From contig NZ_CP006951.1 in NCBI RefSeq assembly GCF_000830885.1, positions 62,001-126,000 of the forward strand: DNA of 64,000 nt, written 5' to 3'. Shown here piece after piece: positions 51,848 through 61,108 of this stretch (positions are counted from its first letter, which is position 1; each line of letters opens with the position of its first letter). Source of the DNA: Dehalococcoides mccartyi CG5 (GTDB taxonomy: Bacteria > Chloroflexota > Dehalococcoidia > Dehalococcoidales > Dehalococcoidaceae). The translations under genes and the position numbers were made by a program. Under the pieces are notes generated by a model, which had not been told where the DNA came from, did no database searches, and worked only from the letters and a program-made list of their open reading frames with translations.

Positions 51848-53650
51848 TTAAGTAGAAAGTTTGGCAATGGCAGCGGCCAGTATCATCAGGCCTATGGCAA
51901 TGGGCAGAATACGGATAGCGTAGTTGTATACACTATTCTTTTCTTCCAGAGCGGCTGCCTCTGCCTTGCGTTTCTTGGCGGCAGCCTCATAACCGTAACC
52001 GTTGGTAATAGCATCCCAGTAACAGGCATCTACACACCGTCCGCAGTAAGTGCAACTGGAGGTATCCAGACTATAGTCATGTACCTGATGGACAATATCA
52101 CACCTAAGGCATCTCTGAGCCTCTTTTTTGGCAGCATTGGGAGACAGGGTTTTTTCAATTTCCACCTTGTCACCGCCGGCCTGTTTAACCAGATTAAGCT
52201 CTACCTGAGAGCGGTTTTGACCCTTGGGTTCGCCAAGTGGTTTGATGGTTTTTTCAGGCGGAGCCAGAGTTTCATCCAGATTGCCTTCGCCCCCTAAATA
52301 TTTGTCAATCAGACCGGCTACCGAACGTCCGGCGGCCATAGCCTCAATAACCGAACGGGCACCGCTGATGCCGTCACCGGCGGCAAATACGCCGGGCTGA
52401 ACCACAGACAGATAATCCGAACCGGGTTTATCATTTTGGGCTACAGTGGTGATAATGGTATCTGCAGATATCAAACGGCGGGTATCGTTTATTATTTCAT
52501 AATGGAGTTTATTTTCTTTGTCATATCCGTAAGAACGGATACGGAACAGTTCAACTCCCTCAATCTTGTCATTTAGCTTTACCAGCTTTACAAAATCCAG
52601 CGAAGGTTGAACAGTTACGCCCGCATCTATAGCGCGGTCAACTTCTTCGGGAGAAGCTTCCTTGCTGCCGGTATGGCGGCTGCAAACCAGATTCACCTCG
52701 GAGACACCCAGATTTTTAGCGGCAAAGGCACTATTGTAGGCTTCACTGCCGCCGCCTATTACGATTACCTTGTCGCCAAGGGTTTCTTTAGTGGTTGATT
52801 TTATGCCCTTCAGGAAATCATTGCCCTTAATCAGGTCTGATTTGGCAGTTTCATCACAGGGAAGCAACAGCCCTTCGTCTACGCCAAGTACCCCGGTGGA
52901 GAGCAAAACCGAGTCGTAGCCCTGTTTAAACAGGGTCTGTACGGATTGTACCTGGCAGGAGGTATGAATGGTCACACCCAGGTCGGTGATAGTCTTAATT
53001 TCTTTGTTGAGTATCTCTTTGGGCAGCTGATGTTCCGGTATGCTGTAAAACATCTTGCCGCCGGCATATTCCATGGATTCAAATATAGTAGCCTCATGCC
53101 CCAGCAGGGTCAGGAAGTAGGCAGAGGTAAGGCCGGCCGGGCCTGAACCGATAATAGCCACTTTTTTGCCGGTGGGCGGGGCAATTTTGAGGTTGTTTTT
53201 CCAACTGCCGTCATCATTTTCAGCGGCATATCTCTTGAGTGCCCGAATAGCAATGGGCTCATCAAACTTCTGGCGTTGGCACTCCAGTTCACAGGGGTGG
53301 AAACAAACATAGCCGCACACTGAAGGGAAGGGTATTTTTTCTCTCATAACGGCGGTAGCGGCTGGAGCATTGCCATCAGCTACGAAACGCACGTAGCGGG
53401 GGATATCCAGTCCGGCAGGGCAGGCACGGGTGCAGGGAGAAGTGCCAACCCGCTTGGTGGGCATTTTATCCCGCTCCAGTTTGATAGCATCTACCGGGCA
53501 GACGCTGGCACAACGGTTACACCCGGTACAGCGGCTTTGTGTCCAAAAAAACTCACTGCCCTTGGTGCGCTTGGTAGAAACTACCTTACCGTCCTTTTTG
53601 GTTTCCTCGGCTGGTTCCAGTTTTTCTACAGGCTTTTTTGTTTTGGCCAT
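51848..53650 (-). CDS. GltD-like FAD/NAD(P) oxidoreductase with ferredoxin domains and a C-terminal anchor
   Basis: This protein has 600 residues. The N-terminal [4Fe-4S] motif is 'CTGCNRCASVCPVDAIKL' (about 39-56). A DPYD/GltD-type cluster domain follows ('TRACPAGLDIPRYVRFVADG', 'CGYVCFHPCELECQR'). The FAD site is 'VAIIGSGPAGLTSAYFLTLL' and the NAD(P) site 'VIVIGGGSEAYNSAFAAKNL'. A C-terminal pair 'CLRCDI' and 'CTYCGRCVDACYWDAI' is present. The last 20 residues form a membrane helix ('ILPIAIGLMILAAAIAKL'). No glutamate synthase large subunit is next to it. The anchor and extra clusters suggest electron transfer between NAD(P)H and ferredoxin or a membrane partner, which is inference. Confidence 0.88.
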   Translation of the reverse strand: MAKTKKPVEKLEPAEETKKDGKVVSTKRTKGSEFFWTQSRCTGCNRCASVCPVDAIKLERDKMPTKRVGTSPCTRACPAGLDIPRYVRFVADGNAPAATAVMREKIPFPSVCGYVCFHPCELECQRQKFDEPIAIRALKRYAAENDDGSWKNNLKIAPPTGKKVAIIGSGPAGLTSAYFLTLLGHEATIFESMEYAGGKMFYSIPEHQLPKEILNKEIKTITDLGVTIHTSCQVQSVQTLFKQGYDSVLLSTGVLGVDEGLLLPCDETAKSDLIKGNDFLKGIKSTTKETLGDKVIVIGGGSEAYNSAFAAKNLGVSEVNLVCSRHTGSKEASPEEVDRAIDAGVTVQPSLDFVKLVKLNDKIEGVELFRIRSYGYDKENKLHYEIINDTRRLISADTIITTVAQNDKPGSDYLSVVQPGVFAAGDGISGARSVIEAMAAGRSVAGLIDKYLGGEGNLDETLAPPEKTIKPLGEPKGQNRSQVELNLVKQAGGDKVEIEKTLSPNAAKKEAQRCLRCDIVHQVHDYSLDTSSCTYCGRCVDACYWDAITNGYGYEAAAKKRKAEAAALEEKNSVYNYAIRILPIAIGLMILAAAIAKLST

Positions 53651-53898
53651 ATATGTCTCTTTTTTAAAATATTTACGCCTATATTTAAAAGACCTAGTTC
53701 CTGATATTATACTTGCAACATATAGTACATTGTCAATCCGCCGGGTTCACAGGCGGATAAGCAGATTTATTCTACCACCCCTTCGGCTCTTTGGCCAACT
53801 TACATCCGTGTCATTGGTTTTAGGGGATAATATTGTTTTAAACAGGGGATTGACAAAACAGTAATAACTAATTAAAATCAAGTCTAATTGAATAAGGT

Positions 53899-54066
53899 CT
53901 GCCGGTGCTTTGTAACAAAAGCTTAAAAGGGAAGCCTGTTAAAATCAGGTGCGGTCCCGCCGCTGTATACGGGGACGAAAACTGGAATTTGCCACTGTTT
54001 TATTAGAATGAAACGGGAAGGCCCGGTGAGTAGGTTGAGCCGTAAGCCAGAATATCTGCCGGCATA
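53899..54066 (+). ncRNA. Cobalamin riboswitch (aptamer)
   Basis: The core elements are in order: 'AAAAGGGAAGCCTGTTAAAA', then 'TCAGGTGCGGTCCCGCCGCT' with GT, 'GGGACGAAAACTGGAATTTG', 'CCACTG', 'GGGAAGGCCCGGTGAGTAGG', and the B12-box-like 'GCCAGAATATCTGCCGGC'. The closing stem TGCCGG pairs with CCGGCA. It senses adenosylcobalamin or a related corrinoid and controls the two genes at 54192 and 55238. Confidence 0.93.
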
Positions 54067-54082
54067 GAGTTTCGCGGAAAAT

Positions 54083-54174
54083 GGCCGTGGGAAATGGTAA
54101 ATCCCTGAGCCGAAAGGTTTGGGGTTTTATTTTTTGTTTGAATCCTCAAACCTTGGTGGTTTGGGGATTTTTTT
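54083..54174 (+). terminator. Riboswitch expression platform: terminator with competing antiterminator
   Basis: The terminator is AATCCTCAAACC (54141-54152), loop TTGGT, GGTTTGGGGATT (54158-54169), then seven T. An identical GGTTTGGGG also occurs upstream at 54116-54124 and can pair with the same left arm, which would prevent the terminator. A further hairpin (GGGA/TCCC inside GGC/GCC, 54083-54111) lies between aptamer and switch. High corrinoid should favour termination. Confidence 0.85.
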
Positions 54175-54191
54175 ATTGGGCGGGGTGAAAT

Positions 54192-55223
54192 ATGAAAGCA
54201 GTCTTATTGGAAAAACCGGGTGAACTAAGGCTTGCAGAGGTGGTTACTCCATACTGCCCGAAAGGCGGGGTACTGCTAAAGGTACTTTGCTGCGCAATCT
54301 GCGGGACAGACGTAAAGATGTTTCGGCGGGGGCATCGTGACCTTGAGTACCCCCGGATACTGGGGCATGAAATAGCCGCCGAGGTAGTCTGCTCTGGACA
54401 CCCTGATTTTGAGGCAGGTTGCCGGGTACAGGTTTACCCCGGTATTGCCTGCGGGGTTTGCCCTCTCTGCTTGCAGGGCAGGGAGAACCTGTGCCGGAAG
54501 GTAAAAATAATCGGTTTTAACTATGACGGGGGCTTGGCCGAATATATGGCACTCCCCCCTGAAAGCCTTCCGGTTGGGCTTAACATAATACCTGAACATG
54601 TTTCAGACGAGGAAGCCTCTCTGGCCGAGCCGCTTGCCAGCTGTATCCACGCCCAGTCTGTTTGCCGGGTGGGAGACGGGGACAGGGTGCTGGTGCTTGG
54701 GGCGGGTCCTTTGGGCCTTTTGCAAGCCATGCTGGCCAGACACAACGGAGCGGAACAGGTGCTCGTGGCCGAAGTCCTGCCCGAAAGGGTGAATGGGGCA
54801 GAACTGGCCAGCCCTGACGGGGTAATAGATTTGGGTAAAACCAGCCTTAAGCAGGGGGTTTTTGACCAGACCGGTGGGGCAGGGGTAGACGTAATCTTGA
54901 TTGCCAGTTCGGGGGTGGAAGTGGGAGAGCTTCCCTTTATTTTAAGCCCAGGCGGGCGGATAAATTTCTTTTCCGGCCTGCCCAAAGACCGCTCTGAGCT
55001 TATCATTGATGCAAATGCCGTGCATTATCAGGAACTGGTTATTAATGGCTCTTACGGCTCTACCGCGGCGGATAATGCCGAAGCCCTCCGCCTGATAGGG
55101 AAGGGAATTATACCTGTAAAAAGGCTTATCAGCCGGATAACAGGTATTTCAGATATAGAGGCAGCTTTTCTGGGAGTAGAAAGGCTGGATGGTCTTAAAA
55201 CCATAATAAAATTTCATAAATGA
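54192..55223 (+). CDS. Zinc-dependent MDR-family dehydrogenase (threonine/sorbitol dehydrogenase-like)
   Basis: This enzyme has 343 residues. The catalytic zinc site is 'CCAICGTDVKMFRRG' plus 'LGHEIAAEV'. The structural zinc loop is 'CGVCPLCLQGRENLC', with all four Cys present. The Rossmann motif is 'VLVLGAGPLGLLQAM'. The enzyme would oxidise a secondary alcohol with NAD(P). The cobalamin riboswitch immediately upstream ties it to corrinoid metabolism, where aminopropanol or threonine-derived substrates for the nucleotide loop are candidates; that is inference. Its stop is 14 bp before the chosen start of the next gene. Confidence 0.88.
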   Translation: MKAVLLEKPGELRLAEVVTPYCPKGGVLLKVLCCAICGTDVKMFRRGHRDLEYPRILGHEIAAEVVCSGHPDFEAGCRVQVYPGIACGVCPLCLQGRENLCRKVKIIGFNYDGGLAEYMALPPESLPVGLNIIPEHVSDEEASLAEPLASCIHAQSVCRVGDGDRVLVLGAGPLGLLQAMLARHNGAEQVLVAEVLPERVNGAELASPDGVIDLGKTSLKQGVFDQTGGAGVDVILIASSGVEVGELPFILSPGGRINFFSGLPKDRSELIIDANAVHYQELVINGSYGSTAADNAEALRLIGKGIIPVKRLISRITGISDIEAAFLGVERLDGLKTIIKFHK

Positions 55224-55237
55224 AGAAGGAAACAAAA

Positions 55238-56362
55238 ATGGACGAAAACAGAGTAAAAAATTTCGGGGCTGTTATCAGCCGCCTTATCTCAAAGGAAAAT
55301 CTGAGCCGTGAGGAGGTTAAAGACTGTTTTTCCCAGATAATGCGGAATGAACAGCCTGACCTTCAGCAGGGTGCGTTTATGGCCGCCCTTACCGCCAAGG
55401 GCGAAACGGCATCTGAGATTGCTGGTGTCTGGGAAGCTATATATGAGCAGGATACTGTTCGGGTTAAGCTGCAGGTAAACAAACCGGTGGTGGATAACTG
55501 CGGGACAGGCATGGACAGCCTGAAAACCTTCAATATCAGTACAGCTGCTTCAATTGTGGCGGCGGCGGGCGGGGTGGTACTGGCCAAACATGGTGCCAGA
55601 GCCCTCAGCGGGAGCTGCGGCACTATTGATATGCTTGAATCACTGGGCGTTGACGTGGAAACAGATGTGGAGACGGTCAAGCGGAGTATTGAAACAGTGG
55701 GCATAGGTATTTTTAACGGTATGAGTGCCAAGGTTCACCCGCAGGCTCTTTTCCGCATTCTTTCCCAGATACGTTTCGGCACTACCCTTAATATTGCCGG
55801 TTCACTGGCAAACCCGGCTTTGCCCCATTATGCGGTAAGGGGTGTATACTCATCCGAACTTTTACAGCCTGTAGCTGAGGTAATGCGTGAAATAGGTTAT
55901 AAAAAAGCTTTGGTTATCTTCGGGTCTGCACCCGGCGGACGCGGGATGGACGAGCTTTCAAATCTGGGTGAAAGCCGCATTGCCGAACTTGGGGAAGACG
56001 GGCAGATTACTGAATACAGCCTGTCCCCGGTGGATTTCGGTTTGAAGGTTCGCCAGGCGGAGGACATTCTTACCTCAGGTGACAAACAGGGTGAAACCCT
56101 GAGACTGCTAAGGATTCTTTCGGGTAAGGAAAATGGGGCTGCTTTTGAAGTGGTTTGTTTGAATACGGCACCTGTTTTCTATGTAGCCGGTGCGGTTAGT
56201 AGCCTTAGAGAAGGTTATGCTAAAGCGGCCGAAATAATCCGTTCGGGTGTGGCCATTGCCAAGCTTCGGCAGTGGATACAGGCCCAAAACGCCAACCCTG
56301 AAGCGGGCATTGCCCGGCTGGAAAGTCTGCTGGGTGAGCTGGATGGGGCAAAAATCAGCTAG
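55238..56362 (+). CDS. TrpD/nucleoside phosphorylase-like phosphoribosyltransferase
   Basis: About 374 residues from ATG 55238, chosen because GAAGGAAAC precedes it. ATG 55220, overlapping the upstream stop, is possible. The family core is clear: 'NCGTGMDSLKTFNISTAAS' (PRPP/phosphate loop), 'VLAKHGARALSGSCGTIDML' and 'RFGTTLNIAGSLANP'. This matches anthranilate phosphoribosyltransferase (TrpD) or its close relatives. No trp gene is nearby and it is under a cobalamin riboswitch, so the usual tryptophan role is doubtful. A phosphoribosylation step for a corrinoid lower ligand is a possible role, unproven. Confidence 0.85.
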   Translation: MDENRVKNFGAVISRLISKENLSREEVKDCFSQIMRNEQPDLQQGAFMAALTAKGETASEIAGVWEAIYEQDTVRVKLQVNKPVVDNCGTGMDSLKTFNISTAASIVAAAGGVVLAKHGARALSGSCGTIDMLESLGVDVETDVETVKRSIETVGIGIFNGMSAKVHPQALFRILSQIRFGTTLNIAGSLANPALPHYAVRGVYSSELLQPVAEVMREIGYKKALVIFGSAPGGRGMDELSNLGESRIAELGEDGQITEYSLSPVDFGLKVRQAEDILTSGDKQGETLRLLRILSGKENGAAFEVVCLNTAPVFYVAGAVSSLREGYAKAAEIIRSGVAIAKLRQWIQAQNANPEAGIARLESLLGELDGAKIS

Positions 56363-59716: not shown

Positions 59717-61108
59717 TTAAATTGTACAAAAATCTTTGGAAATACGAATAAAATTCTTTGCCAGGTCGGGATTTGTGCCGAAATGAAGGTGAAGATAACT
59801 GGCCAGTACGTTAGTACTGCCCCCTATGATAAAGCCTTCATTTTGGCCGACAAATTCGGCTGGTTCCAGCAAGGTATAGGCAGGTTTGGTCTGGGGTGAG
59901 GGCAGCTTTGACCAGTGGAAAATGTGGCCGCGGAGTTCTGTGCCTTTGGCAGACAGGATATTGTCATTTTGCACCGCTGCTCTGGTATATCCCAGACGGT
60001 GAAGCTTCTTCTGCATAACGGATATGCCAGGTAGCAGTCCCAGCATTAAGTATTTAGTACTATCAAAATCTTCTATAGCCTCGGATAAATACATAAGCCC
60101 GCCGCATTCGGCATAAATGGGCATGCCATCCGCCGCCGCTTTGGTCAGTGTGTCTTTCATGGGCTGGTTGGCACTCAGTTCAGCGGCCATTATTTCCGGA
60201 AAGCCGCCTCCTATATATATGCCGCCGATATCCGGAGGCAGGCAGGTATCATGCACCGGGCTGAAATAACAAAGCTCTGCCCCCCAGTCGGACAACATAT
60301 CCAGATTAGCCTGATAATAAAAACTGAAAGCTTCATCTTTGGCTACGGCTATGCGGGTAACGGGGCAGGCTGGAGTTTCTGGGAACAGACAAGGCAGGGG
60401 TTTCTCAGGCAGGGGTGGGGCATTGCGGGCAATTTCCAGAATACGGTCAATATCTATAGTGCTTTCAATACGGGTAGCCAGATTTTGGATAAAGGTTTCC
60501 AGTTCTCCGCCTTCAGAGGTAGTTTTCAATCCCAGATGGCGTTCCGGTATGACCAAATCTTTATTGCGAAGCAGGTAGCCTATCACCGGGGTTGAGGCAT
60601 ATTTTTCAATTGCTTTGCGGCAGATTTCATAATGGCGCGTACTCCCTGCCTGGTTGAGTATAACGCCGGCAATATTTATACGGGGATCCAGATTTTTATA
60701 ACCCAGAACTATGGCGGCAGCACTTTCAGCCATATGTGAAATATTTACCAACAGTATAACAGGGGCTGAGAGTAACCGGGCTATTTCGGCTGTAGACCCT
60801 CCGGGGCGTTCCCCGCTGTATCCGTCATACAGTCCCATAACGCCTTCTACCAGAGCTATATCCCGGTTTTTCAGACCGTGAAAAAATACCTCTGTCATAG
60901 CGTCTTTACTTAGCATCCACGAATCAAGGTTATGGCAGGGATTATTTGAAGCCAGAGTAAGGTATCCGGGGTCTATATAATCAGGGCCGCACTTATAGGC
61001 GGCTACTTTGTGTCCGCGTTGGGCAAGGGCGGCAGTAAGGCCGCTGCTTATGGTAGTCTTGCCGCTGCTTGAAGAAACTCCGGCTATAACAATACGGGGG
61101 AAATTCAT
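59717..61108 (-). CDS. cbiA: Cobyrinate a,c-diamide synthase CbiA/CobB
   Basis: This enzyme has 463 residues. The N-terminal dethiobiotin-synthetase-like domain has the P-loop 'VSSSSGKTTISSGL' (11-24) and 'YKCGPDYIDPGYLT'. The glutaminase domain has 'YIGGGFPEI', the nucleophile Cys in 'IYAECGGLMYLSEAI' (about 334) and 'LRGHIFHWSKL'. It amidates the a and c side chains of cobyrinate using glutamine and ATP. D. mccartyi lacks early corrin-ring synthesis, so it would act on salvaged, side-chain-hydrolysed corrinoids. It stands beside yjbQ, 40 bp away on the same strand. Confidence 0.95.
   Translation of the reverse strand: MNFPRIVIAGVSSSSGKTTISSGLTAALAQRGHKVAAYKCGPDYIDPGYLTLASNNPCHNLDSWMLSKDAMTEVFFHGLKNRDIALVEGVMGLYDGYSGERPGGSTAEIARLLSAPVILLVNISHMAESAAAIVLGYKNLDPRINIAGVILNQAGSTRHYEICRKAIEKYASTPVIGYLLRNKDLVIPERHLGLKTTSEGGELETFIQNLATRIESTIDIDRILEIARNAPPLPEKPLPCLFPETPACPVTRIAVAKDEAFSFYYQANLDMLSDWGAELCYFSPVHDTCLPPDIGGIYIGGGFPEIMAAELSANQPMKDTLTKAAADGMPIYAECGGLMYLSEAIEDFDSTKYLMLGLLPGISVMQKKLHRLGYTRAAVQNDNILSAKGTELRGHIFHWSKLPSPQTKPAYTLLEPAEFVGQNEGFIIGGSTNVLASYLHLHFGTNPDLAKNFIRISKDFCTI

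Follow-up and report, generated by a model that had tools for sequence, protein, structure and literature searches.

The window (the whole 64,000-nucleotide stretch of Dehalococcoides mccartyi CG5 DNA analysed here) contains a cobalamin riboswitch followed by a zinc-type dehydrogenase gene (ADH) and a gene for a TrpD-like phosphoribosyltransferase (TrpDL). Judged from sequence comparison, the locus is rather likely to be a two-gene cassette, repressed by cobamide, that works alongside CobT in nucleotide-loop (lower-ligand) metabolism. Its most likely contribution would be to supply or process a substrate that CobT uses in lower-ligand activation, and the pair probably carries out a step, so far undescribed, by which the B12 cofactor is finished or recycled. 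The two open reading frames overlap by 4 nt, the next large gene 3' of TrpDL lies on the opposite strand and, as the earlier note on this DNA had observed, no trp gene stands beside TrpDL. The features of the locus are as follows.

53850–53878, + strand: promoter-like site, TTGACA-17-TAAAAT, agreeing with the consensus at 11 of 12 positions and kept in the Dehalococcoides relative L043 (predicted from sequence)
53886–54077, + strand: cobalamin riboswitch aptamer, RF00174, 110.5 bits over the whole model (1–189)
54103–54124, + strand: first terminator-like hairpin, then a T-rich run; identical in L043
54140–54170, + strand: second terminator-like hairpin with a T tract; identical in L043
54192–55223, + strand: ADH, zinc-type medium-chain dehydrogenase, 343 aa, PF08240 and PF00107
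55220–56362, + strand: TrpDL, TrpD-like phosphoribosyltransferase, 380 aa, PF00591, PF02885 and TIGR01245

Riboswitch and regulon

The aptamer matches RF00174 in both sequence and structure (110.5 bits, E 8.3e-27; gathering score 31.5) and is an ordinary representative of its class. With its full length and the terminator-like hairpins at 54103–54124 and 54140–54170, it bears out the earlier description of a complete riboswitch with terminator before the pair; the coordinates given there are otherwise correct, with a start (53899) that falls 13 nt within the aptamer. The promoter-like site ends 8 nt 5' of the aptamer. Alternative folds are available to the leader in that the 5' arm of the second hairpin can pair with the 3' arm of the first, and the segment 54070–54185 has a folding energy of -46.3 kcal/mol (z = -5.0 against shuffled sequences). 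The leader of the congener L043 is nearly identical.

Three copies of RF00174 above threshold and one weak copy are found in the complete 1.36 Mb genome, the copy at 53886–54077 being the strongest. Of the remaining copies, one precedes cobT-cobS-cobC-cobU and one a cbiZ beside a reductive dehalogenase gene, while the weak copy lies before btuFCD-cbiZ-cbiB-cobD. Since the riboswitches elsewhere in the genome all precede corrinoid genes, the ADH–TrpDL pair is a member of a small, otherwise purely corrinoid regulon. Its arrangement of an RF00174 aptamer with terminator-like hairpins 3' of it resembles that of B12-salvage riboswitch regulons, including the cobT and cbiZ aptamers of the same genome, although the window copy governs two genes outside the standard cobamide set. 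The genome holds many corrinoid salvage genes and reductive dehalogenase genes, and its CobT gene lies away from the cassette.

Two further observations concern corrinoid genes. At L008:4726-4977 a cobalamin riboswitch lies 5' of a second cbiZ, which is itself directly 3' of a reductive dehalogenase gene. The window also encodes, 3.4 kb from the cassette and on the - strand (59717–61108), a cobyrinic acid a,c-diamide synthase (CobB/CbiA; 527 bits, cut-off 254); de novo corrin synthesis is presumed to be lacking in this organism.

TrpDL, its acceptor site and the dehydrogenase

TrpDL scores 288 bits against the TIGR01245 equivalog, whose cut-off is 199, so that the NCBI model would still name it anthranilate phosphoribosyltransferase. 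Its AlphaFold2 model (pLDDT 92.9) is predicted to have the complete TrpD fold and, as modelled, a type-IV PRTase fold, superposing on 1zyk with a Z score of 44.7, an rmsd of 1.7 Å and 28% identity; the likeness to TrpD (PDB 1zyk, 1o17) extends over the full length, with Z about 45 and rmsd 1.7–1.8 Å. Only TrpD entries were among the matches listed in a structure search with this model, which gave no clue to the substrate. The PRPP-loop features that had been noted in TrpDL hold across its relatives: the PRPP/Mg2+ motifs of TrpD (GTGxD, NxST, [KR]HG and DE) are kept in all 26 clade members compared, the only variation being an R in place of K in nine and one G to A change in KHG.

The acceptor site, by contrast, departs from that of TrpD. 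In the Mycobacterium tuberculosis enzyme, N138 and R193 hold the anthranilate carboxylate (PMC9835598). The first of these is Asn in 9/9 canonical TrpDs and Ala or Ser in 26/26 members of the TrpDL clade, while the second is Arg in 9/9 and Leu in 26/26, respectively. The third Gly of GTGGD is Met in TrpDL, and the canonical HPAMK...RxxGIRT...LGPL has become HPxALxRILSQIxFGT...SLANPA, part of a new stretch conserved in the clade around the lost residues (NGMSxxVHPxALxRILSQIxFGTxLNIxxSLANPA). On the same helix as the replaced carboxylate residue lies Arg179, which is new and invariant in the clade; it may bind a carboxylate, and the acceptor of TrpDL could thus be carboxylated.

The earlier note had left room for TrpDL being the only trpD of the genome. 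This is ruled out by a second, canonical TrpD, 38% identical to TrpDL, encoded within a complete trp operon (trpE-trpG-trpD-trpC-trpF-aroF-trpB-trpA). A TrpD homologue of canonical-range score is likewise present besides TrpDL in each of the four further genomes checked (G245-G248), and profile scores separate clade members (330–644 bits) from the second TrpD (154–235 bits, in four genomes with both scored). The phylogeny that the note had also proposed comprised 61 proteins, including 39 rows from the cassette clade (riboswitch-associated and archaeal) and 21 canonical TrpDs; the 39 TrpDL members, from Dehalococcoidia, Firmicutes and archaea, form a single clade (SH-aLRT 98) apart from canonical TrpD, with a diverged pair from genome G138 (L017/L050) as its sister. 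Together, the acceptor-site residues and the tree rule out a misplaced trp gene. On these comparisons TrpDL is not orthologous to the TrpD of the trp operon, and it appears to form a new subfamily, probably a non-anthranilate one. That it is an ordinary second anthranilate phosphoribosyltransferase, under the riboswitch by chance, is highly improbable: the TIGR01245 score (288 vs 199 bits) and the shared fold are what such a reading has in its favour, and it is opposed by the presence of a complete trp operon with its own TrpD, by the loss of both anthranilate-carboxylate residues across the whole clade and by a conserved riboswitch and cob context in which the gene's surroundings are those of cobamide, not tryptophan, metabolism.

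TrpDL falls outside two other families. A Pfam search gave no match to the CobT family (PF02277) at E 0.001, and the score against YbiB/TrpD2 (NF006005) is 35 bits, where the cut-off is 185. TrpDL is comparable to CobT (NaMN:DMB phosphoribosyltransferase) by analogy, in its phosphoribosyl chemistry, in what is presumably the same pathway branch and as a neighbouring gene, but differs from it in lacking PF02277, in retaining the PRPP site and in occurring in the same genomes as CobT itself.

The partner protein is polyol/threonine-dehydrogenase-like, with an NAD-type Rossmann motif. Its catalytic zinc ligands (C37, H59/E60, E146) and structural cysteines (87, 90, 93 and 101) are kept in 30–31 of 31 cassette homologues and place it in the zinc MDR dehydrogenase superfamily. 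Its closest named families (NCBIfam) and solved structures (PDB) are threonine 3-dehydrogenases. It shares zinc ligands and an NAD fold with these and with polyol dehydrogenases, but lies far under the L-threonine 3-dehydrogenase equivalog cut-offs (148.6 vs 458 and 158 vs 380 bits) and is always partnered by TrpDL. Divergently from the cassette, at 51848–53650 on the - strand, the window encodes a GltD-like flavoprotein of 600 aa whose two ends carry 4Fe-4S motifs and whose C-terminal part includes a hydrophobic segment.

Conservation and neighbourhood of the cassette

Homologues were collected with the window protein as query and then with a profile built from 12 members. The TrpDL clade is present in all of the Dehalococcoides genomes (3/3), in 5/8 from a sister genus (taken as Dehalogenimonas), and further afield in the groups around a Methanothrix MAG (17/247 genomes), a Firmicutes MAG (10/398), a Eubacteriaceae MAG (3/291) and a Methanomassiliicoccales MAG (4/145). 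Wherever the flank is long enough, an ADH gene adjoins TrpDL, across five phylum- or class-level groups. Each of the 18 bacterial loci whose flank was read has a cobalamin riboswitch directly 5' of ADH, namely the window, five Dehalogenimonas-family genomes (L045-L049), L040, L042 and ten further Firmicute loci (L105-L112, L114, L115); L113 is truncated where its contig stops. The pair at L050, which is more distant, has no cobalamin riboswitch 5' of it. This diverged ADH–TrpDL pair (39% identity; L050:6788-14929, G138) comes after hemA-hemC-SUMT/hemD-hemB-hemL, has a pyrrolysine mttB element (RF02510) close by, and suggests a wider tie of ADH–TrpDL to tetrapyrroles.

The neighbours of the cassette point to the same branch of metabolism in distant groups. 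In four Dehalogenimonas-family genomes (L045-L048) it is embedded in a salvage operon, btuFCD-cbiZ-cbiB-cobD-[riboswitch-ADH-TrpDL]-cobT-cobS-cobC-cobU. In most archaea that carry it, it stands directly beside cobT: the neighbour is a bacterial-type CobT in L093-L101 (partial in L093 and L101) and an archaeal one in L039 (TIGR00303, 313 bits) and L102. In L089-L091 the neighbour is a corrinoid ABC transporter ATPase, and in archaeal L103, L104, L116 and L118 no cobamide gene lies within the stretch read. A Firmicute locus (L111) has the order riboswitch-ADH-TrpDL-BzaA-BzaB-CobT, where two ThiC-like proteins with BzaB as best model lie between TrpDL and CobT; by its gene content this is an anaerobic benzimidazole operon. 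The earlier proposal that the pair makes or activates part of the nucleotide loop or a lower-ligand precursor is thus supported as to its place in corrinoid, specifically nucleotide-loop, metabolism, by the conserved riboswitches, by cobT adjacency in three distant groups, by its position inside the cob salvage operon in relatives and by the bzaAB-cobT operon.

CobT also tracks the cassette beyond the immediate locus. PF02277 is over its cut-off in 38/42 cassette genomes and in 34/80 cassette-less ones (Fisher p = 1e-7, with genomes treated as independent of kinship). A role as CobT bypass is ruled out, as nearly every cassette genome has CobT, with an archaeal-type CobT adjoining the cassette in G245 and G358.

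As far as the open literature searched shows, the two-gene cassette is undescribed, work on D. mccartyi corrinoid transcriptomics and remodelling lying outside that search. The strain 195 orthologues of the pair may be DET0125/DET0126, and a corrinoid transcriptome study of that strain (Johnson 2009) may have listed them as corrinoid-responsive.

Possible roles of the two enzymes

From the riboswitch and terminators we infer that scarcity of cobamide would permit production of ADH and TrpDL. The conserved residues and the model indicate a TrpD-fold phosphoribosyltransferase with its PRPP/Mg2+ site kept and its acceptor pocket rebuilt, which makes a non-anthranilate N-heterocycle the most likely partner in phosphoribosyl transfer to or from PRPP. 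Candidate acceptors would be a lower-ligand base or a pyridine base from which the phosphoribosyl donor of CobT is formed. The NAD-linked ADH, given the invariant pairing, may act on an alcohol or ketone of the TrpDL substrate or product, and the product of the two enzymes would feed CobT/CobS. No single proposed TrpDL reaction accounts for the invariant ADH. Transfer from PRPP with inversion yields beta-N-ribosides; the ribosides of cobamides are alpha-N-linked and are made by CobT. A direct CobT-like role for TrpDL therefore does not follow, and the stereochemistry would more naturally have TrpDL make the CobT donor, or work on a beta-nucleotide, than build the loop.

Several more specific assignments can be set against this scheme. 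A role in freeing, converting or supplying the lower-ligand base for organisms without benzimidazole synthesis of their own is possible, if tentative. It would agree with a bzaABCDE-type operon at a cobT locus of the cassette-less Dehalogenimonas-family genomes G124 and G200 that the cassette-bearing ones do not have, and with bzaAB at 4/4 cassette-less Firmicute cobT loci read vs 1/12 with the cassette, counts that are small, non-random and phylogenetically clustered, with bza scored at cobT loci only. It is weakened by L111, which has both cassette and bza, by G113, with neither at its cobT locus, and by the need of D. mccartyi for external DMB in culture. Somewhat more doubtful is a PRPP-dependent nicotinate phosphoribosyltransferase that would rebuild NaMN, the donor of CobT, from the nicotinate that CobT releases. 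TrpD-type stereochemistry suits the formation of beta-NaMN from PRPP, almost every cassette genome has CobT as well, Arg179 might hold a carboxylate, and PncB (PF04095), which usually does this job, is missing from 35/42 cassette genomes, all nine Dehalococcoidia included. Yet PncB is found in 7/42 cassette genomes vs 4/34 cassette-less CobT-positive relatives (p = 0.75), the known carboxylate-binding residues are lost, and ADH is left with no role. Compensation by TrpDL for loss of PncB finds no support, since PF04095 occurs just as seldom in genomes that have the cassette (7/42) as in those that lack it (12/80).

An aminopropanol-side role, in which ADH would make (R)-1-amino-2-propanol from threonine or aminoacetone with TrpDL as a secondary partner, is improbable. 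The threonine 3-dehydrogenase affinities of ADH and its position just after cobD in the Dehalogenimonas-family operons would suit it, but ADH reaches only 148–158 bits against equivalog cut-offs of 380–458, the PRPP enzyme is left unexplained, and in archaea the neighbours are cobT rather than cobD/cbiB. No single proposed TrpDL reaction accounts for the invariant ADH.

We put at about an even chance that ADH–TrpDL performs an undescribed nucleotide-loop step other than those of CobT, ArsAB and the Bza enzymes, for example PRPP-dependent handling of a lower-ligand base by the two enzymes or provision of a special phosphoribosyl donor for CobT, and common to corrinoid-salvaging bacteria and methanogen-related archaea. 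Such a cassette would be expected to show a PRPP-dependent activity on a non-anthranilate base that is cobamide-repressed. The locus indicates that genes likely annotated trpD in bacteria and archaea are members of the cobamide regulon and not tryptophan genes; if the proposed activity is true, a missing step would be added to a pathway thought complete.

Two features of the cassette-less relatives deserve separate mention. L123 and L124 (G200) show a complete btuFCD-cbiZ-cbiB-cobD-cobT-cobS-cobC-cobU block twice, with CobT scores equal to a tenth of a bit. L120 and L122 (G124 and G200, of the window's family and probably Dehalogenimonas) carry an apparent full anaerobic DMB operon encoding CobS-like, CobT, BzaC-, BzaD- and BzaE-like proteins, BzaA and BzaB, which is unexpected in a group presumed to be auxotrophic for corrinoids.
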